Source: Thermoplasmata archaeon
GTDB taxonomy: Archaea; Thermoplasmatota; Thermoplasmata; Thermoplasmatales; ARK-15
NCBI GenBank assembly: GCA_038729465.1
Contig: JAVYRZ010000003.1
Coordinates: forward strand, 1-40,453
DNA length: 40,453 nucleotides
Direction of reading: 5' to 3'
The notes under the pieces were generated by a model, which worked only from the letters and a program-made list of their open reading frames with translations, did no database searches and was not told the origin of the DNA. How positions within the stretch are numbered: the first letter of the stretch is position 1; each line of letters begins with the position of its first letter. Shown in pieces: positions 14,549 to 28,364 of this stretch. The translations under genes and the position numbers were made by a program.

Positions 14549-16447
14549 TCATTTTGCTTCAGTATACTCTAAAACCGTAAGTATAAATTCAGCATGGCTC
14601 CAGATCAAAGGAGATACTGATAATACTGTATTATCATATGGATTGATCTGTTCTGATAAGACCCCAGAGTTCTGCTTGTGATTCAGTACCCATCTTATTA
14701 GTTCTACTGCTTTATCTATCTCTTTCATTCTTATAAAATATCTTGCAGCCCATAAAGTTGTAATAATCCATGGATTTCCAGGAATATGAGAATCTTCTTT
14801 CGTTTTCTGATACGTATCATTTTCATATCTTGCAAGGCCACCTACATTTTTTACCCATAATTTCTGTAATATTATGTTCATATTTGACTGCATTCTCGTG
14901 TCTTTGACATCTTTCATATCAAAAAGAAATAAGGCCATATTCTGAGAATCTACAGTGAAATCTGGAACATTGTTAATAAGCGCTCTTGCATAGTACCCTT
15001 TCTCCTCAGAATAAAAATATTTTTCGAAAGATTCAGACATCTTTTTAGCCGCAGCATTGTATTTTTCAACAAGCTCGAAATCTCCAAAAGTTCTCGCAAA
15101 ATTAGCTGCAGCTTTTAATCCAGCATAAGTAGTGGCCACAGTAAAAGTATGCACCCCGTACCTTTCCTCCCATAGATCATAAGAGCTCTTTGGCAGCCCG
15201 TTTTCATCTGTGAACTTTACTAAAAAATCAGCACTTTTTTTTATCAGAGCATCATAAAACGGAAAGAAATATTCTATATCCAGAGATTGCAAATAGTATT
15301 GCCATAATGCCCATATCACCAGTGCAGTTTCATCTTCCTGAATCGGTATGATGGGTTCATTGTTAATGATTCTTGGAATCCAGCTGCTCGCTATTTTTCC
15401 GTCTGCAGTGTATTTATGATAAAAATACCCATCTTTCGATACAGTTCCTAAAGCAAAATCAAAGAATCTTCTTGAGGCGCTGAAATGCAACGTTTTAGTA
15501 AGCGCATATGCTGCCAAGGCTGCATCTCTGGGCCAGACATAGTAATATCCATCCCTACTGTCTTTAAGTATGTCACTATCTGACGAAGCCATAATTCCGC
15601 CCTTATTATTTATATGCGTTCTGATTATAAACTGCGATTTTTTAAATAGAGACGCAATGTCAGAGTTAACAGCAATCTTCTTTTTTGCGCTCCAAACCTC
15701 CCAGTAATTATTTGTTCTTCTATACATTTCTCTCAACTGATCAATGCTGAGATTGCTCTTATCTTTTATGATCTCGTCCATATTTTCGCCACATATTAAA
15801 AAATAATAGAATGTTCTCGTTTCTCCTGGCTGTATGATTATCGTATTACTTATCACTGAATCTACGGATCCTATAGCTACAGGATTAAACGATAGCTTGC
15901 TATCTTCAGCATCTTTCCATGTGCCTTCAAATCCCCTAAAAGCCTTGATGCCTATTGCATACTGATCATTGGTATTGTTAAGATCGTCCAGTGTAGCTGC
16001 TAAAAAATATCTGCTACCTTTATAGTGGATCACTGAGTTCAATTCAGGATAGTAAAATGCAGTGTCACCTATATCATTTCCATATATGTAGAAATCATGA
16101 TGGAAAAAGAACTTTATTTCTTGAGGTGCATTGCTTTGATTAAAGATGTTAACCTTTCTGACATAAATATTCTGGTATATATCCACAAAATCCAGGTTCT
16201 CAAATTTTAACTGGTCAATCTGATACTTTACATTACCTATCATCGTATCATCCAGATAATCCATGGAAGTAATGAGAGAGTGGTCAATCCATCTAAAATG
16301 ATCATTGATGGATACACCGAACCTGAAAGGGTGGCCCACAGCATGATTATCAGACTGGTCATGAGCATAGTAAAAATCTACAATTCTATAATCTTTATCA
16401 AAGCTTACTAAAACTCTGCCATTTCCAATAGGCAAGTACCTTACCAT
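14549..16447 (-). CDS. GH15 glucoamylase, intracellular
   Basis: This enzyme releases glucose from the non-reducing ends of alpha-glucans. The 632-residue protein has an N-terminal beta-sandwich domain (about 1-250) and a catalytic (alpha/alpha)6 barrel. Visible motifs are YYYVWPRDAALAAYAL (start of the barrel), the acid Glu in YDLWEERYGVHTFT, and the base Glu in SGVLSEQINP. There is no signal peptide, so it is cytoplasmic and probably acts on stored glycogen, as known intracellular glucoamylases of Thermoplasma and Picrophilus do. It is divergent from the debranching-enzyme operon across 103 bp that hold two back-to-back TATA boxes. Confidence 0.9.
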   Translation of the reverse strand: MVRYLPIGNGRVLVSFDKDYRIVDFYYAHDQSDNHAVGHPFRFGVSINDHFRWIDHSLITSMDYLDDTMIGNVKYQIDQLKFENLDFVDIYQNIYVRKVNIFNQSNAPQEIKFFFHHDFYIYGNDIGDTAFYYPELNSVIHYKGSRYFLAATLDDLNNTNDQYAIGIKAFRGFEGTWKDAEDSKLSFNPVAIGSVDSVISNTIIIQPGETRTFYYFLICGENMDEIIKDKSNLSIDQLREMYRRTNNYWEVWSAKKKIAVNSDIASLFKKSQFIIRTHINNKGGIMASSDSDILKDSRDGYYYVWPRDAALAAYALTKTLHFSASRRFFDFALGTVSKDGYFYHKYTADGKIASSWIPRIINNEPIIPIQEDETALVIWALWQYYLQSLDIEYFFPFYDALIKKSADFLVKFTDENGLPKSSYDLWEERYGVHTFTVATTYAGLKAAANFARTFGDFELVEKYNAAAKKMSESFEKYFYSEEKGYYARALINNVPDFTVDSQNMALFLFDMKDVKDTRMQSNMNIILQKLWVKNVGGLARYENDTYQKTKEDSHIPGNPWIITTLWAARYFIRMKEIDKAVELIRWVLNHKQNSGVLSEQINPYDNTVLSVSPLIWSHAEFILTVLEYTEAK

Positions 16448-16464
16448 AAAATAGTATCTGTATT

Positions 16465-16477
16465 CTTAAATTTAAAG
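16465..16477 (-). promoter_or_regulatory. TATA box of the GH15 glucoamylase gene
   Basis: CTTTAAATTTAAG on the minus strand is centred about 24 nt before the ATG at 16447, predicting a leaderless transcript. Confidence 0.45.
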
Positions 16478-16517
16478 CTTTTGATAAACAGCCTATTTTT
16501 ATAATCAATAAAACAAA

Positions 16518-16530
16518 GATTTATTAATTA
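16518..16530 (+). promoter_or_regulatory. TATA box of the glycogen operon
   Basis: GATTTATTAATTA is centred 27 nt before the ATG at 16551, predicting a leaderless transcript for the debranching enzyme, glycogen synthase and amylase genes. Confidence 0.45.
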
Positions 16531-16550
16531 CATTATGCTAAATCAGTAAT

Positions 16551-18353
16551 ATGAACTATGATGAAGAATGGTTAATAAGCAACAGAAATGGAAGTTATGC
16601 CTCTTCCTCAGCATCGTTTTCAAATCTCCGTACCTATCATGGCTTGTATGTTAAAAATATGAACGCACAGTTTGACAGATATGTGCTATTATCAAAGTTA
16701 TTTGAAGAGCTGGAATTTGAAAATAAGAAGATAAATCTGGATACCAATTACTATCCGGACGTGATTTATCCTGAGGGCTATAAATATCTTCAGAATTTTG
16801 AGCCTGCACCAATTCCCACTTTTTATTATGATTTAGAAGACACCAAACTTGTAAAAAAGATAATAATAGACCCAGAAAAAGATATAGTAATGATAAAATA
16901 CAAAGTTACAGGCAAACTACCAAAATATTTCAGGTTATTTCCTCTGTTAGCGTTCAGAAATTATCACAACACAATGAAACGAGATGACAGAAAAATTGAA
17001 TTTGCAGAAGAACAGCTTGCTTACAAATTTTTTTCAGACAACCTGTTTTTGAAAATTGCCAAAATTGGAAGCTTTAAAGAAGATAAGCTGTGGTACTACA
17101 ATTTTCAGTATATTAGAGATAGAGAGCGTGGCTGCAATTACGAAGATGACCTGTATTTACCAGGGTACATAGAACTGGAAAATATCGAAGATACAGTGAC
17201 AGTTTCCATTTACACGGATGAAGCTCCAGATTACACATTTGAAGAAGTTGAAAAGAGATATTTATCGTCTCTATCTTCCATTCGCCTTAAAAATGAAAAT
17301 ATTAGAAAAATAGTTAGAAATTCAACATATTTTTTGACAAGAGATAACATAATTGCAGGATATTACTGGTTTACACCTTGGGCTAGGGACACGTTTATAT
17401 CATTGCCAGGGCTTGTGCTGATCCCTAAAAGGTATCAGCTGGCTAAGGAGATATTATTAAATTACACACAAAGGATAAAAAATGGATTGACACCAAAAAC
17501 TATATCTGAACCTGATAATTACAGCACTGCAGACTCATCATTATGGTACATATATGCAGTGTATAAGTATTATAAATATACACAGGACCTGAGCATTATA
17601 AAATTGGTGTATCCTAAGATCCTTGAAATAATTGAAAGCTACAGGAAAGGTAACGCTTATTTTGAGATGATAGATTCTCTGATAAAAGTTAAAAAACCAC
17701 AGTTAACATGGATGGATGCCAGCATAGGGGATATGATAATTACTCCCAGAGTTGGCTATCCTGTAGAAATTAATGCACTATGGTATAACGCTCTGGAAAT
17801 TGTCAGGTTTATGGCTAAAAAGCAGAAAGTTGAATATCCACAATATCTCGATCTCCTGATCCCAGAAGTCAGGGAAAAGTTTAAAGCTAAATTTGTAAAA
17901 GATGACATCATTCTGGATGTGGCAGAGCCTGATGACTATAGCATCCGCCCAAACTTCATATTTGCATTTTCACTGCCTTATCCAGTTCTGGATAACTTTT
18001 CAAAATATTTGGAACTGGTAAAATCTAAATTATTAACTCCTTTAGGGTTGAGAACTCTTATTCAGGATGATAAACGATACATAGGTACCTATGAAGGAGA
18101 TCAGTACCATAGAGATTCTGCATATCATAATGGATCAATATGGCCGTGGCTTGCAGGGCCATATATCACTGCATCAGTAAATGCAGGCACTAATCCTACT
18201 GAGCTCTTAGAATATTTCAAAGAGCTGTATTCATTGTCGAAAATACCAGAGCTATTTGATGGTGATGAGCCACATAAGCCACGAGGATGCATTATTCAGG
18301 CTTGGAGTTATGGTGAGTTGATAAGGGCATATTATGAAGACTTAAAGAGATAA
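16551..18353 (+). CDS. glycogen debranching enzyme (GH133, amylo-alpha-1,6-glucosidase)
   Basis: The 600-residue protein has an N-terminal beta-sandwich domain (opening EEWLISNRNGSYASSSAS, typical of the archaeal/bacterial debranching family) and a C-terminal (alpha/alpha)6 domain. Conserved blocks are FTPWARDTFISLPGL, LTWMDA, PVEINALWYNAL, IRPNFIFAFSLP, HNGSIWPWL and AWSYGELIRAYY. It would hydrolyse alpha-1,6 branch points of glycogen in the cytoplasm, so that GH15 and GH57 enzymes can finish degradation. It is the first gene of a three-gene operon; glycogen synthase follows after 3 nt. No signal peptide is present. Confidence 0.92.
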   Translation: MNYDEEWLISNRNGSYASSSASFSNLRTYHGLYVKNMNAQFDRYVLLSKLFEELEFENKKINLDTNYYPDVIYPEGYKYLQNFEPAPIPTFYYDLEDTKLVKKIIIDPEKDIVMIKYKVTGKLPKYFRLFPLLAFRNYHNTMKRDDRKIEFAEEQLAYKFFSDNLFLKIAKIGSFKEDKLWYYNFQYIRDRERGCNYEDDLYLPGYIELENIEDTVTVSIYTDEAPDYTFEEVEKRYLSSLSSIRLKNENIRKIVRNSTYFLTRDNIIAGYYWFTPWARDTFISLPGLVLIPKRYQLAKEILLNYTQRIKNGLTPKTISEPDNYSTADSSLWYIYAVYKYYKYTQDLSIIKLVYPKILEIIESYRKGNAYFEMIDSLIKVKKPQLTWMDASIGDMIITPRVGYPVEINALWYNALEIVRFMAKKQKVEYPQYLDLLIPEVREKFKAKFVKDDIILDVAEPDDYSIRPNFIFAFSLPYPVLDNFSKYLELVKSKLLTPLGLRTLIQDDKRYIGTYEGDQYHRDSAYHNGSIWPWLAGPYITASVNAGTNPTELLEYFKELYSLSKIPELFDGDEPHKPRGCIIQAWSYGELIRAYYEDLKR

Positions 18354-18356
18354 ACT

Positions 18357-19472
18357 ATGAAAATCACGGTTATAGGATGGGAACTACCACCAGCATTTTC
18401 AGGTGGACTTGGAATACATACAATTAACCTGTTCAGCATAATAAGCAAGTTTGCGGAAGTAGAGATATATATCCCAAATATGGCAAGATTATATCCTGTT
18501 TATCCGTTTTCTGTAAAAACTATCCCTCTGACATCGCAGGGATTTAAAAGTGGTTATGAACCTATTATTACAAACTTTTACGAAGCGGTTGAAGAGTATA
18601 ATCAGAAAGTTGTGAAAGCTTTTAATCCTAAAAATACAGCGGTAATTCACTGCCATGACTGGATCACGTTTAAAGCGGGCATAGAGCTTAAAGAAAAATA
18701 TGGCATACCTCTCGTGGTGACTGTTCACAGCACTGAAATAGACAGGTCAGGAAACTTTTATCCGCAAAGGGCAATAATGGACATAGAGGAGCAAGGGCTA
18801 AAAAAAGCGGATCATATAATTGCAGTGTCAGATTATACTAAAAAAATAATAACAGATACTTATGATATTCCAGATTCTAAAATCACCACAATATACAATG
18901 GATTGGGCAAACATTTCTCTTCAATTCCGCCAAAAAACTATGATTTATCGGGATATGTATTATATTTTGGCAGGGTCACTATGCAAAAAGGCCCCATATT
19001 CTTCGTAGAAGCCGCTAAAAAAGTTATTGATAAGATTCATGATGTAAAATTCATAATGGCTGGAACTGGAGAGCAATTAGAGGAAATGAAAGCTCTATCA
19101 AAAACGCTTTTCATTAATAAAAATATGATATTTACTGGCTTTGTAGAATTTAATAAAGCGATGCAATATTATCGAAATAGTGACTTATTCATCTTGCCTG
19201 CCGTTTCAGAGCCATTTGGCATAACTGTTCTTGAGGCCATGAGTTCAGGGACACCTGCTATAATAAGCAAAACTACAGGCGTAGGAGAAGTATTGAAAAA
19301 TATACTTAAGGCAGATTTTTGGGATACAGATCTCATTGCAGAGTATATAATAGGAGCAATAAAGTACAGAAGCCTTAGAAGCACTTTAGGCTCGATGGGG
19401 CAGATGGAGGCAAAGAAGTTTACTTGGGAAAAAGCAGCAATAAAAACAATGGAGGTGTATCTATCTTTATGA
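18357..19472 (+). CDS. GT4-family glycogen synthase
   Basis: The 371-residue glycosyltransferase has two Rossmann domains. The N-terminal part has WELPPAFSGGLGIH, the Gly-rich start typical of glycogen/starch synthases, and HCHDW near residue 99. The C-terminal part has YFGRVTMQKG, with Arg and Lys that bind the nucleotide diphosphate, and SEPFGITVLEAMSSG, the E-x7-E nucleotide-sugar site. It likely extends alpha-1,4-glucan from UDP- or ADP-glucose, as archaeal GT4-like synthases do. It sits between debranching enzyme and amylase, which supports glycogen. Its stop overlaps the next start by 4 nt (ATGA). Confidence 0.88.
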   Translation: MKITVIGWELPPAFSGGLGIHTINLFSIISKFAEVEIYIPNMARLYPVYPFSVKTIPLTSQGFKSGYEPIITNFYEAVEEYNQKVVKAFNPKNTAVIHCHDWITFKAGIELKEKYGIPLVVTVHSTEIDRSGNFYPQRAIMDIEEQGLKKADHIIAVSDYTKKIITDTYDIPDSKITTIYNGLGKHFSSIPPKNYDLSGYVLYFGRVTMQKGPIFFVEAAKKVIDKIHDVKFIMAGTGEQLEEMKALSKTLFINKNMIFTGFVEFNKAMQYYRNSDLFILPAVSEPFGITVLEAMSSGTPAIISKTTGVGEVLKNILKADFWDTDLIAEYIIGAIKYRSLRSTLGSMGQMEAKKFTWEKAAIKTMEVYLSL

Positions 19473-20599
19473 AAAACGTGGTGTTTTATTTTGAAGTACA
19501 CCAGCCCAGGAGGCTGAGAATCTACAGAATGAAGGAGATCGGCATCAATCATGACTATTTTTGGGAAGAGAAAAACAGAGATATTTTTATGAGAGCGGCA
19601 AAAAAATGTTATATACCGACCACTAGATTGTTTATAGAACATGGTATAAAAGCCAGTTTCTCCCTGTCTGGAACTTTTTTAGAGCAGGCAATTGAATATG
19701 AGCCGGAAGTTATAGAAACTTTCAAAGAATATTTTAAAACAGGGCTTGGAGAACTGTTAAGTGAAACATATTACCACAGTCTTGCATCTTTATGGGATCG
19801 AGATGAGTTTATGGCACAGGTAAAGGAACAAGAAGAGATGATATGGAAACTTTTCAAGATAAAACCAAAGACTTTTAGAAATACAGAATTGCTTTATAAT
19901 GACGATATTTCAAGATATGTATCTTCCATGGGCTATGCCAATATAATTGCAGAAGGCACAGATTCGTTGATATCCGCGCATAATCCAAACTATATTTACA
20001 GATCCGTATCAAACTTAAACTTGTTTTTAAGAAACTATCGGCTGAGCGATGACATATCTTTCAGGTTCTCAACATGGAACTGGCCTGAGTATCCTCTTAC
20101 AGCGGATAAGTACGCAAGATGGATAGACAGTGCCCCAGGAGACATGGCAAATCTGTTTATGGACTATGAAACTTTTGGAGAGCATCAGGTTTCAGATACT
20201 GGTATATTTGAGTTTCTTAAATACCTGCCAATAGAATTTAAAAACAGAGGAATTAAAATGCTCACGATAAACGAAGCAGCACAATCTTTTGAAAGAAGAG
20301 AGATGATAAAAGTTTCAGAGGCAATTTCTTGGGCAGATGTGAATAGAGATGTATCTCCATGGCTAGGGAACGATATGCAGAAAGAAGCATTTAAAGAGCT
20401 TCAAAAATTGAAAAGCAGTAACAATAAGCAGATATGGAGACATCTGCAGACTTCAGATCTACTCTATTATATGTCTACAGGAACTTCTCCTGATCAGATT
20501 GTACATGAATATTTTAATCCTTACAAGTCACCATACTATGCATTTTTAACATATATGGCAATACTTGAAGATTTCAGGAGGAACACTGGCATAGATTAA
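19469..20599 (+). CDS. GH57 alpha-amylase-like glycoside hydrolase
   Basis: The start is ATG at 19469, overlapping the upstream stop, with GGAGGTG at 19451-19457; a longer frame from 19424 would run far into the upstream gene. The 376-residue protein has the GH57 motifs FEVHQPRRL near the N-terminus, GELLSETYYHSL, the nucleophile Glu in FRNTELLY, and the acid Asp in FMDYETFGEHQ. GH57 enzymes cleave alpha-1,4 (some alpha-1,6) glucan bonds with retention; some act as 4-alpha-glucanotransferases or branching enzymes. It is shorter than typical branching enzymes, so amylase is the better reading. It is the last gene of the glycogen operon and has no signal peptide. Confidence 0.9.
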   Translation: MKNVVFYFEVHQPRRLRIYRMKEIGINHDYFWEEKNRDIFMRAAKKCYIPTTRLFIEHGIKASFSLSGTFLEQAIEYEPEVIETFKEYFKTGLGELLSETYYHSLASLWDRDEFMAQVKEQEEMIWKLFKIKPKTFRNTELLYNDDISRYVSSMGYANIIAEGTDSLISAHNPNYIYRSVSNLNLFLRNYRLSDDISFRFSTWNWPEYPLTADKYARWIDSAPGDMANLFMDYETFGEHQVSDTGIFEFLKYLPIEFKNRGIKMLTINEAAQSFERREMIKVSEAISWADVNRDVSPWLGNDMQKEAFKELQKLKSSNNKQIWRHLQTSDLLYYMSTGTSPDQIVHEYFNPYKSPYYAFLTYMAILEDFRRNTGID

Positions 20600-20649: not shown

Positions 20650-21840
20650 ATGACAAAAATTAAAAATATAGATATTTATGAATTAGGTCAGGAAAAAGGT
20701 AGTGCTACATGGGCTTCTACAATGATACTTGTAAAGATTACAACAGATGATGGGTATGTTGGATATGGTGAAGCAGTTCCAACTTTGAGAGTGTTGCCAG
20801 TGATAGAGTCCATTAAAGAGATATCGAGAGTATATATCGGAAAAGATCCATTCAACGTCGAGAAGAACAGGAGAGAATGGTACAAACACGATTTTTACAA
20901 TGCACAATCTTTTGAATCCACTACTGCATTAAGTGCAGTGGATATTGCAAGCTGGGACATAATAGGCAAAATACTAAAAACGCCAGTATATAAGATACTC
21001 GGCGGAGAATACAGAAACAGGATCAGAGCTTATGCAAACGGCTGGTATGACAACTGTGTAACACCAGATCAATTTGCTGCAAAAGCGAAAGAATGGATAT
21101 CTAAAGGATATACTGCATTGAAATTTGATCCTTTTGGATCTTACTTTGACTACATTGATGAGAAGGGCTTGACAGAGGCAGAAGCTAGGGTGAAAGCAGT
21201 CAGAGAGGCTGTTGGCGATAAAATAGAGCTGTTGATTGAACATCATGGCAGATTCAATGTTAATTCAGCAATAATGATTGCAAAAAAACTGGAAGCTCTG
21301 AATATTCTGTTTGCAGAAGAGCCTGTTCATCCTGAAGATCTTGAAGGCCTGAAAAAATACAGGAAAGCCACGTCTTTGAAAGTTGCACTCGGAGAAAGAA
21401 TAATAAATAAGGTTCAGGCACTGCAATATATGAAAGAGAACGTGGTGGATTTTTTGCAGTTGGACATCACTAACTCTGGCGGGGTAACAGAAGCGAGGAA
21501 GATAGTGGGCATGGCTGAAGCATTTGGCATAGAAATGGCGTTTCACAATGCTTTCGGGCCTGTGCAAAACGCCGTAACATTGCAGATGGATGCGTCAATA
21601 CCTCTATTCTTAGTACAAGAATCATTCTATGATGTTTTTCCACAGTGGAAAAGAGATCTGATATTTAACAGCACACCTCTAGAAAACGGGCATTTTTCTC
21701 TGCCATCCAGACCTGGAATCGGAGTGGAGATAAACGAGAAAATAATAGAAAAGTACAGTGTTAAAGGCCAGGAATACTTCAATCCAGAAGAACCCGTATG
21801 GGTCGTAAATGGAACTTGGGTCAATAAGTCCAATCTATAA
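20650..21840 (+). CDS. gnaD: gluconate dehydratase (enolase superfamily)
   Basis: This enzyme dehydrates D-gluconate to 2-keto-3-deoxygluconate (KDG), the committed step of the ED pathway; the family often also takes galactonate. The 396-residue protein is a mandelate-racemase-type enolase superfamily member. The catalytic Lys region is TALKFDPFGS, Mg2+ ligands lie in LLIEHHGRFN, LFAEEPVHP and VALGERI, and HNAFGP carries the catalytic His. Archaeal gluconate dehydratases share the KFDPF sequence. It forms a single-gene unit. Its last 20 nt overlap the convergent glucose dehydrogenase gene, which encodes the step that makes its substrate. Confidence 0.93.
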   Translation: MTKIKNIDIYELGQEKGSATWASTMILVKITTDDGYVGYGEAVPTLRVLPVIESIKEISRVYIGKDPFNVEKNRREWYKHDFYNAQSFESTTALSAVDIASWDIIGKILKTPVYKILGGEYRNRIRAYANGWYDNCVTPDQFAAKAKEWISKGYTALKFDPFGSYFDYIDEKGLTEAEARVKAVREAVGDKIELLIEHHGRFNVNSAIMIAKKLEALNILFAEEPVHPEDLEGLKKYRKATSLKVALGERIINKVQALQYMKENVVDFLQLDITNSGGVTEARKIVGMAEAFGIEMAFHNAFGPVQNAVTLQMDASIPLFLVQESFYDVFPQWKRDLIFNSTPLENGHFSLPSRPGIGVEINEKIIEKYSVKGQEYFNPEEPVWVVNGTWVNKSNL

Positions 21841-22900
21841 CTGTTTTTATTTCTCCTTCTTGTTTTTTAGCTATTGCAGCTAATGAATTTTCAGGCTTGA
21901 ATCTATCAGTGATAAGAGTATTGAGCAGAGATCCATACTTTGTGTTCCAGAGCTCTATATATTTTGCAGCGTCTTCAAAATGAGTTTTTATGGCATTTAC
22001 ACTGCCAAATAAAAGTATATTATTTTCAACAATATATGTGATCATCTCTCCCGAGATAGGGTATGAAGTGCCGCTGGTAGTGCCAAAAAATGTGACAGCA
22101 CTGTTTTTTTTCAATTTGTTAAGCAGGGGAAACACTGCGGAAGGGACTCCACTAGTGTCCAGCAATACATCCAAATCTGGTAAAGTTTCAAGGTATTTTT
22201 CAGAGTCAACATACTCTACTTCAATCCGGTCCAGAAAATTCATTTCTCGCTCGGTTGCCTCTCTCCTGTTTATAACAGATACATTAAATCCAATGGTTTT
22301 GAATAGCAGAGCGGTTAACAATCCCGTTGCGCCAGTACCTATAACCGCTGCGTTTCGGCAGTGGTAGGTGTAATCTTTACAGTTCCAAATGGTACGTTTT
22401 TGCAGGGCTTGGATCTCATCAACTGCTTTGATCATATTCGTAAGCGGTTCAATTAAAACAGCGGTATCTCTGATATAATCTGGAACTTTTACAAGGTTTG
22501 TCTCATCATCAGTGAATTCTTCTCTCATAAATCCGTGCAATCCACGTATCCCTGCCTCTGTAAATTCTCCAGTCTCACAAAAATCCTGCCTGCCATTAAG
22601 GCAGTTAGAGCATTTACCACACCCTCTTCTCACAATCGGAACAACCAGGTCACCTCTCTTTAGAATTTTACTTGACCCCGGATCTTTTACAACTCCCAGA
22701 GCTTCGTGTCCTAGTATTAGATACTCTGAATTGACAGGAGCTCTAGCAAATTTAATTTTGTCAGTGACGATTCCTCTATCAGTACCACATATGCCATTAT
22801 ACAGTGTTTTCACTACTACTTTATCTTTTTCTGTCTGGTTATCAGGTAAATCTTTAACGTAGACCCCCTCTTTGCCAGGATATACTATAATAGCTTTCAT
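21821..22900 (-). CDS. gdh: glucose 1-dehydrogenase, zinc-dependent MDR family
   Basis: This enzyme oxidises D-glucose (often also galactose) to glucono-1,5-lactone with NAD(P). The 359-residue protein has the catalytic Zn site in YNGICGTDRG and LGHEALG, and the structural Zn lobe CGKCSNCLNGRQDFC. The Rossmann motif is GTGATG, followed by INRREATE, whose arginines favour NADP binding. It closely follows the Thermoplasma/Sulfolobus glucose dehydrogenase pattern. The start overlaps the stop of the cyclase-family gene by 4 nt (ATGA), so the two are co-translated. It converges with gnaD, overlapping its 3' end by 20 nt. Confidence 0.93.
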   Translation of the reverse strand: MKAIIVYPGKEGVYVKDLPDNQTEKDKVVVKTLYNGICGTDRGIVTDKIKFARAPVNSEYLILGHEALGVVKDPGSSKILKRGDLVVPIVRRGCGKCSNCLNGRQDFCETGEFTEAGIRGLHGFMREEFTDDETNLVKVPDYIRDTAVLIEPLTNMIKAVDEIQALQKRTIWNCKDYTYHCRNAAVIGTGATGLLTALLFKTIGFNVSVINRREATEREMNFLDRIEVEYVDSEKYLETLPDLDVLLDTSGVPSAVFPLLNKLKKNSAVTFFGTTSGTSYPISGEMITYIVENNILLFGSVNAIKTHFEDAAKYIELWNTKYGSLLNTLITDRFKPENSLAAIAKKQEGEIKTVIDWTY

Positions 22901-23550
22901 TCAATCACTCCAATAACTCTTGCAGGAGCTCCGTCTCCATCCTTTACAAGCAGTGGTAAACAGAGCACGTAAAATTTTTTGTTAAAAAGCTCTTTAATGT
23001 TATTTGATATGTTTTCTATGATCAGAATATTATTGGATAATAGTGTTTTATGAACTATTCCATCGCTGGAAAGAGGTGATTCAACGCTTGGAGAATCAAT
23101 GCCTACTGCTTTTACCTTATAATTTGCAAGTTTTCTGACTGCATCAACATTAAAATATGAAAATTCTTGCATTTTCCAGTTTAGTTTCCACAATTCACTA
23201 GTGCCAGTATAAAAAAGTGCAATCTTGTCTTTTACAGAGTCATTAATATCTTCTTCTCCAATCTCTTTTTTACCAGCAACGTTTATGACAATACCTTCAC
23301 CAGAATATGACAAGAGGTCAAGCTCATTGACATGCTTTCCGTTTTCCAGAAAATGAGCGGGTGCGTCTACATGTGTGCCTGTATGAGTTCCCATCTGTAG
23401 TTTTTTAATATTCACACCATCTTTAGATATTGATTTATAGATTTCTATTTTTGGTTCTGGGTCTCCAGGATAATAGGGCATATTATTTTCAATAGTATGA
23501 CTAAGTTCAATTATTTTTTTGAAGTTCATAATGAGAACAGAAACGTTCAT
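22897..23550 (-). CDS. cyclase-family (kynurenine-formamidase-like) metal hydrolase
   Basis: The 217-residue protein carries the metal-binding signature of the cyclase family, HTGTHVDAPAHF (HxGTHxDxPxH), near residue 57. It also has the usual ELSHTIENNMPYYPGDPEP opening and GIDSPSVE later. Family members hydrolyse cyclic or linear amides and esters (N-formylkynurenine, isatin). No tryptophan-degradation gene is nearby. It is the first gene of a two-gene operon with glucose dehydrogenase, whose product is a cyclic ester, so it may act as the gluconolactonase; that is inference. An in-frame ATG at 23529 (MNFKKIIELS) fits the family N-terminus at least as well as 23550. Confidence 0.85.
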   Translation of the reverse strand: MNVSVLIMNFKKIIELSHTIENNMPYYPGDPEPKIEIYKSISKDGVNIKKLQMGTHTGTHVDAPAHFLENGKHVNELDLLSYSGEGIVINVAGKKEIGEEDINDSVKDKIALFYTGTSELWKLNWKMQEFSYFNVDAVRKLANYKVKAVGIDSPSVESPLSSDGIVHKTLLSNNILIIENISNNIKELFNKKFYVLCLPLLVKDGDGAPARVIGVIE

Positions 23551-23622: not shown

Positions 23623-25458
23623 ATGTTTGGAAATGGCATAATAAATTTTAAGGATATAGCAGTGAAAGGCTATACAAAAATAGGTAACCACGGCATGATA
23701 GCAAATAATAGGACTGCGGCACTGGTTAGTCTCAATGGAACAATTGACTGGGCATGCTTTCCGAACTTTAACTCTCTCCCACTGTTTAGCTCTATATTAG
23801 ACAAGGACAAAGGTGGCTATTTTTCAATCAAGCCTGCAGATACCGATAGACTATCAGTGTACCAGTATTATGAAGGATATACAAACATCTTAGCCACTGA
23901 ATTCATAAAAAATAAGCGGTTAGTATTAAAACTTATAGATTTTATGCCTGCTTCAGAGTATTCTACAATTTATTTCCCTGAGGTTCACAGATTAATTGAA
24001 TCCCCTTCCTCCGATACAGAAATAGAGATCAAATTCAAGCCTGTATTCAACTATGGTCGTAATAAACCACTACTGATAAAAAATGAGAACGGTTATCTTT
24101 TTAAGTCCGGTAATGAAAATGCAGGAATAGTCTCTGACATTAACTTTGAAGAATCTGAGTTGATGGTGTCAAAAACCCTGAAAATGAGTAAGAACGATGC
24201 AAAATGGATAGTGATGGTCTATGGTGAGAAAAATCTTCATAAGTTGAAAGATTATAAATCGTATGACAGGTTAGAAGAAACGATGCTTTACTGGAAAAAA
24301 TGGGTTAATCAGGGTACCTACAATGGTCTTTACAGCAAATATATAGCGAGATCTGCGCTCGTTTTAAAAGCATTATTTTTCGAGCCTACAGGGATGATTG
24401 TTGCGGCTCCAACATCTAGCTTACCAGAATCAATTGGCGGAGAGAGAAATTGGGATTATAGGTTTATGTGGATTCGTGATTCATCATATGTAATAGAATC
24501 TCTTTCTTTGCTTGGATATAAGACAGAAGCGACCAAGTTTTTGTATGATTTTATTGATAAAGTAAACGGCCAAAAATCACTCAGGACAATTTATTCAATT
24601 AACAATTACAAAAATATGGACGAGGTGGAAATAACAGAATATGAAGGATACATGGGATCAAAACCGGTCAGGTTTGGAAATAGAGCATATAAACAATTAC
24701 AGCTTGACCAATATGGTGCAATTATAAATGCTATTTATCATTTTCATAAAATAGGGGGGCTGGTAAATGCATATTTATGGGATTTTATAATCGGGTTGTT
24801 AGCTGAACTAACTGAAAAGTGGCATCTTCCAGATTCTTCAATATGGGAGTTCAGGACCAGAAAAGAGCATTATGTTTATTCAAAAGTGATGGCATGGGTA
24901 GGCTTTGAAAGAGCCATAGAAATCGGGAAAGAGCTACAATATTCTGCACCCTATGAAAGATGGGAAAATACCGCAAAAAAAATAAAAGAGGATATATTAT
25001 TAAGAGGATACAATGAATCTATCGATTCATTTGTGCAGTTTTATGGTAGCAACGATGTGGATGGAGCATTATTAAGGTTACCAATTCTCGGTTTTCTGCC
25101 AGCAAGCGATAAAAGAATAAAAAACACGATTAAGAAGATAGAAAAAGATTTAATGTATGAAAATTCATTTTTTAGGAGATACAACAATGATGATGGACTG
25201 AAAGGAAAGGATAATCTATTTTTGCTGCTTTCATTCTGGTATACTTTGGATTTAATATTACTTGGCGAAATAGAAAAGGCTAAAAGCGTGTTTGAGGCGG
25301 TTCTTGAGAAAGCGAACCATCTCGCACTTTTTTCAGAGGAACTGGACATCAAGACTGGTGAACTAATCGGTAATTATCCGCAGGCTTTAACGCATCTAGG
25401 GGTCATAAGCGCTGCTTATCAAATCAACAAGATACTAAAGAATAGATTGGAACAGTAA
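23623..25458 (+). CDS. GH15 family glycoside hydrolase, trehalase or glucoamylase
   Basis: The 611-residue protein belongs to the GH15 subgroup with the N-terminal signature IGNHGMIANNRTAALVSLNGTIDWACFPNFNS. It has a beta-sandwich domain, then the (alpha/alpha)6 barrel beginning near SLPESIGGERNWDYRFMWIRDSS. The putative acid Glu is in SSIWEFRTRKEHYVYS and the base Glu in FSEELD, followed by GNYPQALTHLG. Enzymes of this subgroup in Thermoplasma and Sulfolobus have been shown to be trehalases. The nearby GT4/HAD pair strengthens trehalase over glucoamylase. It differs clearly from the GH15 protein at 14549-16447. There is no signal peptide; cytoplasmic. Confidence 0.88.
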   Translation: MFGNGIINFKDIAVKGYTKIGNHGMIANNRTAALVSLNGTIDWACFPNFNSLPLFSSILDKDKGGYFSIKPADTDRLSVYQYYEGYTNILATEFIKNKRLVLKLIDFMPASEYSTIYFPEVHRLIESPSSDTEIEIKFKPVFNYGRNKPLLIKNENGYLFKSGNENAGIVSDINFEESELMVSKTLKMSKNDAKWIVMVYGEKNLHKLKDYKSYDRLEETMLYWKKWVNQGTYNGLYSKYIARSALVLKALFFEPTGMIVAAPTSSLPESIGGERNWDYRFMWIRDSSYVIESLSLLGYKTEATKFLYDFIDKVNGQKSLRTIYSINNYKNMDEVEITEYEGYMGSKPVRFGNRAYKQLQLDQYGAIINAIYHFHKIGGLVNAYLWDFIIGLLAELTEKWHLPDSSIWEFRTRKEHYVYSKVMAWVGFERAIEIGKELQYSAPYERWENTAKKIKEDILLRGYNESIDSFVQFYGSNDVDGALLRLPILGFLPASDKRIKNTIKKIEKDLMYENSFFRRYNNDDGLKGKDNLFLLLSFWYTLDLILLGEIEKAKSVFEAVLEKANHLALFSEELDIKTGELIGNYPQALTHLGVISAAYQINKILKNRLEQ

Positions 25459-25470
25459 CTTATAAAAAGG
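25459..25470 (+). promoter_or_regulatory. TATA box of KDG aldolase
   Basis: CTTATAAAAAGG directly after the GH15 stop is centred 27 nt before the ATG at 25491. It predicts a separate, leaderless transcript for the aldolase-HAD-GT4 operon. Confidence 0.5.
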
Positions 25471-25490
25471 ATGAAGTATATTGTAACAGT

Positions 25491-26354
25491 ATGAAATATA
25501 ATGGAATTGTAACCCCGATGATTACTCCATTCAAAAAGACTGGAGAAGTTGATTATAGCAGTATAGATATCTTAGTAGATTTTCTTAAATCTATTGGCGT
25601 ATCAGGAATATTTCCATCAAGTTCTACTGGACTGTTTCCTTTTCTCAGCATTGATGAGAGAAAAAAAATGCTAGAGCAGGTTTTAAAAAATTCAGAGAAT
25701 TTGAAAATATTTGAAGGAATAGGTGCTGTGGACACGGATAGTGCAATTGAACTTGCCAGGCATGCCAAGGATGTTGGTGCAGATGCAGTAGTGCTAATGC
25801 CATCTTACTACATAAAATCAGATCAAAGCTGGATAATTAATCATTTTGAAAAAGTATTAGAAAAAGTGGATATTGATTTTATGATCTACAATATTCCACA
25901 ATTTACTGGAAGTACTGTGGAATTGAAAACTATTGAATATTTAAAAACTAATTTTTCTCAGATTTCCGGGATAAAAGACAGCTCTGGAGATATGCGCTAT
26001 TTTTCAAAATTAATGCGGTTTAAAGATTCTAATTTTTCAGTGTTTCAGGGTCAAGATGACCTAATGTTAATCTCTCTCACTCTTGGAGCTGATGGAGGCG
26101 TGTGCGGCACTACTAATTTCATAAAATACATTGTGGATCTCTATGAACATTATCGCGATGGGGATATTGATAAAGCCAGAATATTGCAGATAGAAAAAAT
26201 AAACAATATTATGGATGTTCTTGCGAGCTCAAATTTCCCGGCAGGCTACTATTCTGCATTTTACAATAAATTTAAAGTTAATGGAGGATATCGCAATCCT
26301 ATGCTAGCTCCTTCAAAAGAAGCATCTGAATCTATCTTAAAGTGGATTAAATAA
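25491..26354 (+). CDS. kdgA: 2-keto-3-deoxygluconate aldolase (DapA/NAL family)
   Basis: This enzyme cleaves KDG (and in several archaea KDPG) to pyruvate and glyceraldehyde, using a Schiff-base Lys. The 287-residue TIM barrel has Tyr133 in MIYNIP, Lys162 in GIKDSSGD, and PSSSTGLFPFLS at the carboxylate-binding loop. It belongs to the DapA superfamily; the position next to gnaD and glucose dehydrogenase makes KDG aldolase far more likely than dihydrodipicolinate synthase. It is the first gene of an operon: the HAD phosphatase begins 1 nt after its stop. Confidence 0.9.
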   Translation: MKYNGIVTPMITPFKKTGEVDYSSIDILVDFLKSIGVSGIFPSSSTGLFPFLSIDERKKMLEQVLKNSENLKIFEGIGAVDTDSAIELARHAKDVGADAVVLMPSYYIKSDQSWIINHFEKVLEKVDIDFMIYNIPQFTGSTVELKTIEYLKTNFSQISGIKDSSGDMRYFSKLMRFKDSNFSVFQGQDDLMLISLTLGADGGVCGTTNFIKYIVDLYEHYRDGDIDKARILQIEKINNIMDVLASSNFPAGYYSAFYNKFKVNGGYRNPMLAPSKEASESILKWIK

Positions 26355-26355
26355 G

Positions 26356-27033
26356 ATGGCAGAAATTGAGTTTAATAAGCTTAACTTAATAGTTTTAGAT
26401 TATGACAGGACAGTTACAGATTCAAGCTTGAATTTTGATAAAAGAATAGTAGCACCAATTACAAAACTGAGAGAAAGTGGTGTTAAAGTTGCTTTAGTTA
26501 CAGGCAGAGAATGGGATAGCATTTCTTCATTAAAAGACTGGTTTGATGCCATTGCTTTTGAAAATGGTGCGCTGGTATATGCAAAAAACAAGAAATATAA
26601 ATATTATGCAGAAAAAAATGATGAGATAAAAGAGCTGTTGATCGGACAAGGCATAAAATATACTGCCGGCGAAGTAATATTTTCAATATCTTTACAGGAT
26701 TTTAATAGACATCGGCAGTTATTTGAAAAATTTAATAATGTTGAATACATTAAAAATATCGGAAGTGTCATGATACTGCCAAATGGAATAAATAAAGGTT
26801 CTGCGGTTCAAAAAATTCTGAAACTTCTGAACATACAAGAAAACTACAGTTTAGCAATAGGTGATGGAGAAAACGATGTCGAAATGTTCAATGCAGTTAG
26901 ATATAGAGTAAGCATAGAAAATTCAGTTAAGGAATTAAAAGATATTTCAGATCTATGCATACACAAAGAAGCATCTGAGGGCGTTTTAGAATTTCTGAAC
27001 ATCATAATATATGAAAGGGGTGAAAACAAATGA
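26356..27033 (+). CDS. HAD-IIB phosphatase, candidate trehalose/glucoside phosphate phosphatase
   Basis: The 225-residue HAD-superfamily protein has the nucleophile motif LDYDRTVTD (DxD with Arg instead of the usual Gly), VTGRE, a Lys in GINKGSAV, and GDGENDVEMF. The cap is type IIB, as in Cof-like, phosphoglycolate, sucrose- and trehalose-phosphate phosphatases. It sits 1 nt after kdgA and overlaps the GT4 gene by 4 nt (ATGA). Coupling to a glycosyltransferase suggests it removes phosphate from that enzyme's product, for example trehalose 6-phosphate. Phosphoglycolate phosphatase is the main alternative. Family firm, substrate inferred. Confidence 0.82.
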   Translation: MAEIEFNKLNLIVLDYDRTVTDSSLNFDKRIVAPITKLRESGVKVALVTGREWDSISSLKDWFDAIAFENGALVYAKNKKYKYYAEKNDEIKELLIGQGIKYTAGEVIFSISLQDFNRHRQLFEKFNNVEYIKNIGSVMILPNGINKGSAVQKILKLLNIQENYSLAIGDGENDVEMFNAVRYRVSIENSVKELKDISDLCIHKEASEGVLEFLNIIIYERGENK

Positions 27034-28364
27034 ATATCGGGATAGTTTCGCAGACTCCGCTGATAAAGTTTAACGAAAACGCAGAAAAAGAGCATATAAT
27101 TAAATTATCTGACCTTGACAAGAAAGCATATAATTATACGATTGGCGGGGTAAGTATAATGGTCAATAATCTAATTAGAAAAATGCAGGATAGCAAGTTT
27201 GCTACTAAAGTGTACTGGTTTGCCTTAAATCCAAAAGCTCCATATAAGATAATTGTTAGAGACAATTTCGAATTATATAACATAAGCCAGCAGCCAAAAA
27301 TGCTTAAGGCATATACCAATTTTAAAGAGATTTTATGGAACAATATCCACGGATTTAAGCATGAAGAATTCGATAGAGAAGAGTATCTTGGGTTTTTAAA
27401 TTATAATTGGCTTGTTGCAAAGGGTGTGTTGGAAATGAAAGAAAACATAGATTTACTGATGATTCATGATTTTCAACAGCTGATGGTAGGTTCGATGATC
27501 GGGCCTGCCAAACCTGCAGTATTAAGGTGGCATATACCATTCATTCCAGAAAACTTTACTTTTCAGATTCGAAAATTCATAGTTAATGGTTTAGAGGGAT
27601 TTGATTCAATAATAGTAAGCACAAAAAGAGATCTAGAAGGATTAATAAGAGCAGGGTATAGAGGCATAGCATATCAGATTTATCCAAACATAGATCCAGA
27701 AAAATGGGGCAGAGAATCAAAGAAAGCCGCAGTAAGCTTTGGTGAAACTTACGGAATAAAAGAAGATGATTTTTTGGTACTGAATGTTGCAAGAATGGAT
27801 CCTATGAAATCTCAGGACATTTTGATAAAGGCGGTAGCAAGATTAAAAAAATCTATACCTAACATCAAGTTGATGCTCGTTGGCAACGGTAGCTTTACGA
27901 GCAGCTCTAATGGATTGGGATCCAGCAAAGGAGAGTTACATAAACAATATCTGAAAGAACTTGTGAAAAAACTGAGCATTGAAGATAGGATTATATTTAC
28001 AGGATATCTGCCAGATAGTGTTCTTTCTAAAGCATATGAACGCGCAGATCTGTTTGTTTTACCATCAAAAATTGAGGGGTTCGGGTTAAGTGTCGTAGAA
28101 GCATGGATATATGAAAATGTAACCATAGTGAGCAGAGGTGCGGGTGTGTCTGAACTCATTACCGATGGCGTTAACGGTTTTAAATTTAATCCGGGGGAGT
28201 ACATAGAACTTGCTAATATCATTCTAAAAGTATATAAAGAGGAACAAGAAAGAAGTGAGATAGGAAAGAATGCGCATCGGATGGCAAAGCAATGTTACAT
28301 CTCAAACGTGTACAAGCAAACTGAAAGAGTCTTAAGGATTACGCTTGATAATTTTGGAGTATAG
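27030..28364 (+). CDS. GT4 glycosyltransferase, trehalose-synthase (TreT)-like
   Basis: The 444-residue retaining GT4 enzyme resembles TreT along its length: GGVSIMVNNLI, IHDFQQL, VLRWHIPF (TreT-like), NVARMDPMKSQDILIKAV with the donor-binding Arg/Lys, VGNGSF, and LPSKIEGFGLSVVEAW (E-x7-E). TreT joins NDP-glucose to glucose to make trehalose; related GT4 enzymes can use glucose 6-phosphate and form trehalose 6-phosphate. The coupled HAD phosphatase upstream favours a phosphate intermediate. GGGGTGA (27017-27023, spacing 6) is a clear ribosome binding site. It is the last gene of the kdgA operon. Confidence 0.83.
   Translation: MNIGIVSQTPLIKFNENAEKEHIIKLSDLDKKAYNYTIGGVSIMVNNLIRKMQDSKFATKVYWFALNPKAPYKIIVRDNFELYNISQQPKMLKAYTNFKEILWNNIHGFKHEEFDREEYLGFLNYNWLVAKGVLEMKENIDLLMIHDFQQLMVGSMIGPAKPAVLRWHIPFIPENFTFQIRKFIVNGLEGFDSIIVSTKRDLEGLIRAGYRGIAYQIYPNIDPEKWGRESKKAAVSFGETYGIKEDDFLVLNVARMDPMKSQDILIKAVARLKKSIPNIKLMLVGNGSFTSSSNGLGSSKGELHKQYLKELVKKLSIEDRIIFTGYLPDSVLSKAYERADLFVLPSKIEGFGLSVVEAWIYENVTIVSRGAGVSELITDGVNGFKFNPGEYIELANIILKVYKEEQERSEIGKNAHRMAKQCYISNVYKQTERVLRITLDNFGV

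Follow-up and report, generated by a model that had tools for sequence, protein, structure and literature searches.

Could an uncultured, acid-loving Thermoplasmata archaeon make trehalose by way of trehalose 6-phosphate with a glycosyltransferase of family GT4 rather than with the GT20 enzyme OtsA? The question is raised by four genes in a 40,453-nucleotide stretch of DNA (positions 1 to 40,453 of contig JAVYRZ010000003.1, assembly GCA_038729465.1), the whole of which we refer to as the window, and for which an earlier note had proposed synthase/phosphatase chemistry of this kind. The genes form a head-to-tail cluster on the forward strand and encode, in order, a trehalase-type GH15 hydrolase (TreH; 23623-25458, 611 aa) predicted to cleave trehalose into two glucoses, a 2-keto-3-deoxygluconate (KDG) aldolase of the DHDPS superfamily and the non-phosphorylative Entner-Doudoroff pathway (25491-26354, 287 aa), a HAD-IIB phosphatase that falls in the DYDRT clade and is the predicted trehalose-6-phosphate phosphatase (TPP; 26356-27033, 225 aa), and a predicted GT4-type trehalose-6-phosphate synthase (TPS; 27030-28364, 444 aa). 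Pfam and NCBIfam assign them to GH15 plus TREH_N, DHDPS, Hydrolase_3 and Glycos_transf_1, respectively. The intergenic distances are 32 bp, 1 bp and -4 bp; as the note had said, the stop codon of the HAD gene and the start codon of the GT4 gene share an ATGA (AAACAAATGAAT; 27030-27033, forward strand), which can be read directly. The note had also placed the GH15 gene just upstream of this pair. It is indeed upstream and in the same cluster, but the KDG aldolase gene lies between, so that GH15 is two genes away from HAD. We consider it probable (about 0.78), from sequence analysis, that the cluster is a module for trehalose synthesis and degradation; several lines of evidence favour its TPS/TPP part, namely homology, the residues of the active site, the fold of the model, the absence of alternatives and conserved context.

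The closest characterized precedent is Saci_1249 of Sulfolobus acidocaldarius, a GT4 enzyme of 444 aa that forms trehalose 6-phosphate from glucose 6-phosphate (G6P) and UDP- or ADP-glucose and shows no TreT activity (PMC7688234). We identified its gene by the published primers: four of them match locus L074 exactly, and those designed for expression hit the same gene at L091. The window GT4 protein is of the same length and aligns with Saci_1249 from end to end (42-44% identity, E = 4.8e-100). In a maximum-likelihood tree, TreT proteins, that of S. acidocaldarius included, are set apart from it at 100/100. The description of the GT4 protein as TreT-like in the earlier note holds as a remote similarity (48 bits with the TreT model NF041139, which has a cut-off of 775) but not as membership of the TreT clade. 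Nor does the protein qualify as a canonical GT20 TPS, scoring 27.7 of 32.5 bits with PF00982 and 33.7 of 564.85 bits with TIGR02400.

We compared the donor site by aligning a profile of 30 GT4 relatives with E. coli OtsA (hhalign). The OtsA residues involved in UDP-glucose binding are Gly22, Asp130, His154, Arg262, Asp361 and Glu369 (PMC1769515), and these align with G40, D147, H168, R255, E349 and E357 of the window GT4; G40, D147, H168, R255 and E357 are invariant alignment columns. Of the OtsA residues that bind G6P, Trp85 aligns with W103, which Sulfolobales replace by Tyr, and Tyr76 falls within one position of Y95. An AlphaFold model of the GT4 protein (predicted local distance difference test score, pLDDT, 93.3) has VldE, HepE and OtsA as its closest solved folds in Foldseek (template-modelling score, TM, 0.79 for OtsA), and TreT is absent among its 50 best matches. 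Together, these results support the assignment of the window GT4 as a TPS of the Saci_1249 type rather than a TreT, with substrates that are predicted from its sequence.

In S. acidocaldarius the HAD enzyme Saci_0016 dephosphorylates trehalose 6-phosphate, although the 2020 study left its cellular role unproven (PMC7688234). The GT4-type TPS/TPP route that the earlier note mentioned for this organism is thus a real precedent. We located saci_0016 by exact matches of its published primers at L092:11025-11702; gene counting alone was ambiguous, with a HAD-IA gene close by. Saci_0016 is the best match of the window HAD protein in S. acidocaldarius (33-34% identity, E = 1.4e-23, against 7.9e-14 for the second best). 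The predicted model (pLDDT 93) has a HAD-IIB fold which, with the Hydrolase_3 match, bears out the type named in the note. In the HAD tree, a single clade (100/99) unites the window protein, Saci_0016-type proteins and the HADs encoded next to TPS; motif I in this clade is mostly DYDRT. The genome's second HAD-IIB protein (C2:105466) falls in a separate DxDGT clade, together with a gene that sits where Saci_1518 would be expected. The results support a Saci_0016-type phosphatase, for which the predicted activity is that of a TPP. The protein was rejected as a canonical TPP (25.3 of 27 bits with PF02358; 3.6% probability in an hhalign comparison with OtsB). As a side observation, its closest homologues, in genomes of the same family (L167:1174-1863 and L168:8640-9305), have the motif DYDRV and adjoin a conserved protein of about 185 aa.

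These data also bear on a different reading, in which the GT4 protein is TreT-like and uses free glucose, and the HAD protein, acting broadly on sugar phosphates or on phosphoglycolate, shares the operon by chance. Beyond the weak TreT similarity, this reading draws on the HAD score with the archaeal phosphoglycolate phosphatase model TIGR01487, which at 107.6 of 122.75 approaches the cut-off (PRK01158 gives 92.7 of 198); neither cut-off is reached. However, the paralogue at C2:105466 exceeds both, and the database label 'phosphoglycolate phosphatase' is uninformative here because Saci_0016 itself exceeds the cut-off of one such model. Moreover, TreT is a distinct clade, and the pairing of HAD with GT4 recurs across unrelated lineages. 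We therefore regard this reading as very improbable.

The recurrence of the pairing is clearest in another Thermoplasmata family (f12), where a homologous DYDRT HAD gene lies directly beside the GT4 gene, in convergent orientation, in all eight of the genomes that bear GT4. Because homologous HAD and GT4 genes adjoin in 8/8 genomes, the pairing is more than chance. The association with trehalase recurs as well: a GH15 gene adjoins GT4 in Sulfolobus (L006, L091 and L099) and in family f13 (L036, L038 and L039). In S. acidocaldarius, tps and the GH15 gene are divergent neighbours with 36 bp between them (L091:8588-11689), and this GH15 protein exceeds the cut-offs of both the TreH2 and the TreH1 models; in the passages of the 2020 paper that were searched, we found no mention of the adjacency (PMC7688234).

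We also asked which other trehalose routes the genome, which is 97% complete, may encode. No GT20 protein and no canonical TPP (PF02358) scores over its cut-off, and GH13 proteins are absent altogether, which leaves the genome without TreY, TreZ or TreS. There is no TreT: the highest score in the genome, 46 bits, belongs to the window GT4, and real TreTs reach about 400. Thus, the cluster appears to encode the only trehalose pathway of the genome, as far as these families go (trehalose phosphorylase was not searched for).

As for trehalose breakdown, the GH15 protein has both PF00723 (225 bits) and TREH_N (53.5 bits) above cut-off and scores 432 bits with the TreH1 model against 54 with that for oligosaccharide amylase, in agreement with the earlier note, which had put it in the GH15 subgroup that includes trehalases. 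It is 34% identical to the GH15 protein adjoining Saci_1249 and 19% identical to the other GH15 protein of the window. Residues E409 and E572, which we take to be the catalytic Glu pair of GH15 enzymes, are invariant in the alignment; the protein has no PDB match at 0.001. Assignment to the trehalase kind is supported, and trehalose would be its predicted substrate. GH15 is, however, a functionally mixed family, and this protein is below the TreH1 cut-off. The window also holds a glycogen cluster (14549-20599) that encodes an oligosaccharide-amylase-like GH15, a GH133-type debranching enzyme, a glycogen-synthase-like GT4 and a GH57 protein, and that resembles a GT4/GH133/GH57 cluster of Picrophilus torridus (PMC11046441). 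With these genes so near, the TPS/TPP pair might serve synthesis as proposed and the GH15 enzyme act mainly on maltose or malto-oligosaccharides from glycogen, in which case there would be no trehalose cycle. We consider this unlikely, though less so than the other alternatives: the scores of 432 and 54 speak for trehalase, and the second GH15 protein of the window (14549-16447) has the opposite preference (94 with TreH1, 284 with oligosaccharide amylase) and is the better candidate for acting on dextrins.

In the proposed pathway, the GT4 enzyme would transfer glucose from UDP- or ADP-glucose onto G6P to give trehalose 6-phosphate, as its homology to Saci_1249 and its OtsA-like site residues suggest, and the HAD-IIB phosphatase, by its homology to Saci_0016 and the conserved pairing, would release trehalose. 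The GH15 trehalase could then split trehalose into two glucoses, to be oxidised by glucose dehydrogenase, gluconate dehydratase and KDG aldolase along the non-phosphorylative Entner-Doudoroff route. The earlier note had pointed to synthesis, breakdown and KDG aldolase in one neighbourhood, and the predicted genes are indeed all in the cluster, with glucose dehydrogenase and gluconate dehydratase genes alongside. Synthesis and breakdown may thereby run as a real cycle. The same pair of families invites another interpretation, since sucrose-phosphate synthase and phosphatase (SPS/SPP) likewise combine a GT4 with a HAD-IIB enzyme: the product might be a different disaccharide or glycoside that is phosphorylated and then dephosphorylated, such as sucrose or a solute of the glucosyl-glycerol or glucosyl-glycerate type, with GH15 unrelated. 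The GT4 profile matches an SPS structure (6kih, E = 2.5e-30), and the HAD protein scores 91.5 of 107 with the SPP subfamily model. However, the GT4 protein is far closer to Saci_1249, which accepts G6P (PMC7688234), and a trehalase-type GH15 gene adjoins GT4 in the window cluster, in Sulfolobus and in f13, so that we judge another product to be improbable.

Several observations nevertheless weigh against the trehalose module and its TPS/TPP pair. The hhalign comparison placed no GT4 counterpart for Arg9 and Arg300, which with Tyr76 and Trp85 are the OtsA residues that contact the phosphate of G6P. The GH15 protein lies under the NCBIfam equivalog cut-offs, at about half of that for TreH1 (431.8 of 820) and further below that for TreH2 (394.3 of 1000). 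HAD enzymes are notoriously promiscuous in substrate. Saci_0016 itself also cleaves the 6-phosphates of glucose, mannose and fructose (PMC7688234). The HAD protein may have other roles, because its closest homologues (34-37% identity) occur in genomes of the same family (G194 and G249) without a window-type GT4 or a trehalase. The closest GT4 (ARK-15, 70% identity) is likewise without the window-type HAD, a different HAD adjoining it, and families f4 and f13 carry GT4 with no linked HAD, f4 having a canonical PF02358 enzyme elsewhere in the genome. In ARK-15 the adjoining gene encodes a HAD-IA protein 112 bp downstream on the same strand (L094:10967-11590, the same as L002:4876-5499), an apparent replacement of the DYDRT HAD-IIB partner; repeated coupling of GT4 to phosphatases of whatever class is what is expected of a synthase with a phosphorylated product. 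Finally, a cluster that both makes and breaks trehalose would do so to no purpose unless the two were kept apart. Other archaeal GH15 trehalases reportedly work in a narrow acid-pH window, and such a window might, at a guess, be how futile turnover is avoided.

The link to the Entner-Doudoroff pathway is drawn from neighbouring genes. The top PDB match of the KDG aldolase is 4uxd, an aldolase acting on KDG and 2-keto-3-deoxy-6-phosphogluconate (KDPG) (E = 1.8e-72; the runner-up is dihydrodipicolinate synthase, 1.3e-39). A short way upstream of the four-gene cluster are genes for a gluconate/galactonate dehydratase of the enolase superfamily (20650-21840, forward strand; 653 bits with NF040790, below the cut-off of 750) and for a divergently oriented glucose 1-dehydrogenase (21821-22900, reverse strand; best PDB match 2cd9, E = 2.3e-83). 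A gene for a PF04199 'cyclase' (22897-23550, reverse strand) shares 4 bp with the glucose dehydrogenase gene, and its product could be a lactone-opening partner of that enzyme. In family f13, locus L102 (G065, contig 73) holds a trehalase-type GH15 gene, a GT4 gene and a gluconate-dehydratase-like gene together, which again ties trehalose to the Entner-Doudoroff route.

Outside the window, 12 of the 14 distinct loci from Micrarchaeota and Marsarchaeota (L184, L186-L192, L194 and L196-L198; for example, L003:7624-7989) encode a protein of 114-129 aa directly upstream of GT4. The two genes often overlap, by exactly 4 bp in three cases, and the tiny protein accompanies two separate clades of the GT4 tree. 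It has no convincing match in Pfam, NCBIfam or PDB; the evidence that it may be a HAD protein is its set of four capless-HAD motifs, GIDFDxTIT, YIISS, NKA and MIDDD. These previously undescribed proteins represent a possible new class of phosphatase and are the most novel lead of this analysis. More broadly, GT4-type TPS may be widespread in acidophilic archaea (Thermoplasmata, Micrarchaeota, Marsarchaeota and Sulfolobales), with repeated exchange of the phosphatase partner among DYDRT HAD-IIB (the window and f12), HAD-IA (ARK-15) and, as a new minimal TPP class, the capless HADs of 114-129 aa in Micrarchaeota and relatives; we offer this generalization tentatively, at somewhat less than even odds.

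Set against known systems, the window cluster shares with OtsA/OtsB (GT20 TPS plus PF02358 TPP) the proposed reaction sequence and, in its synthase, the predicted fold and donor-site residues of OtsA. OtsA and OtsB genes often form an operon in bacteria. In contrast, the window proteins are below the GT20 and PF02358 cut-offs at 16-19% identity, and the synthase belongs to CAZy family GT4. TreT is likewise a retaining GT-B glycosyltransferase that forms an alpha,alpha-1,1 bond, but it uses free glucose, needs no phosphatase and has CHID where the window GT4 has the OtsA-like WHIPF. Archaeal GH15 trehalases (Thermoplasma; TreH1 and TreH2 of Sulfolobus) have the same GH15 plus TREH_N composition and conserved Glu pair as the window GH15, which differs in its modest identity (34%) and its scores below both equivalog cut-offs. 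The S. acidocaldarius TPS/TPP system is the nearest relative, with a homologous synthase, a homologous DYDRT phosphatase and a tps gene that adjoins a GH15 trehalase gene. There, however, about 1.05 Mb separates tps from tpp and the organism has TreY/TreZ and TreT as well, whereas the window pairs homologues of Saci_1249 and Saci_0016 in one reading unit, ATGA-overlapping and clustered with trehalase and KDG aldolase, in a genome with no other trehalose pathway detected. This coupling provides independent genetic support for the phosphatase, whose assignment earlier work had not settled. The 2020 study considered the GT4-type pathway likely confined to Sulfolobales (PMC7688234), and trehalose synthesis has been reported absent for at least one host-dependent Micrarchaeota (PMC5498576); our results extend the predicted pathway into Thermoplasmata and, judging from gene neighbourhood, into Micrarchaeota that depend on a host. 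The cluster is a plausible compact store-and-burn module tied to the non-phosphorylative Entner-Doudoroff pathway. The predicted chemistry is that of an unusual route which has so far been known only from Sulfolobus; the close coupling of the genes is new, and the fact that it recurs among further acidophilic archaea adds to the support for the phosphatase.

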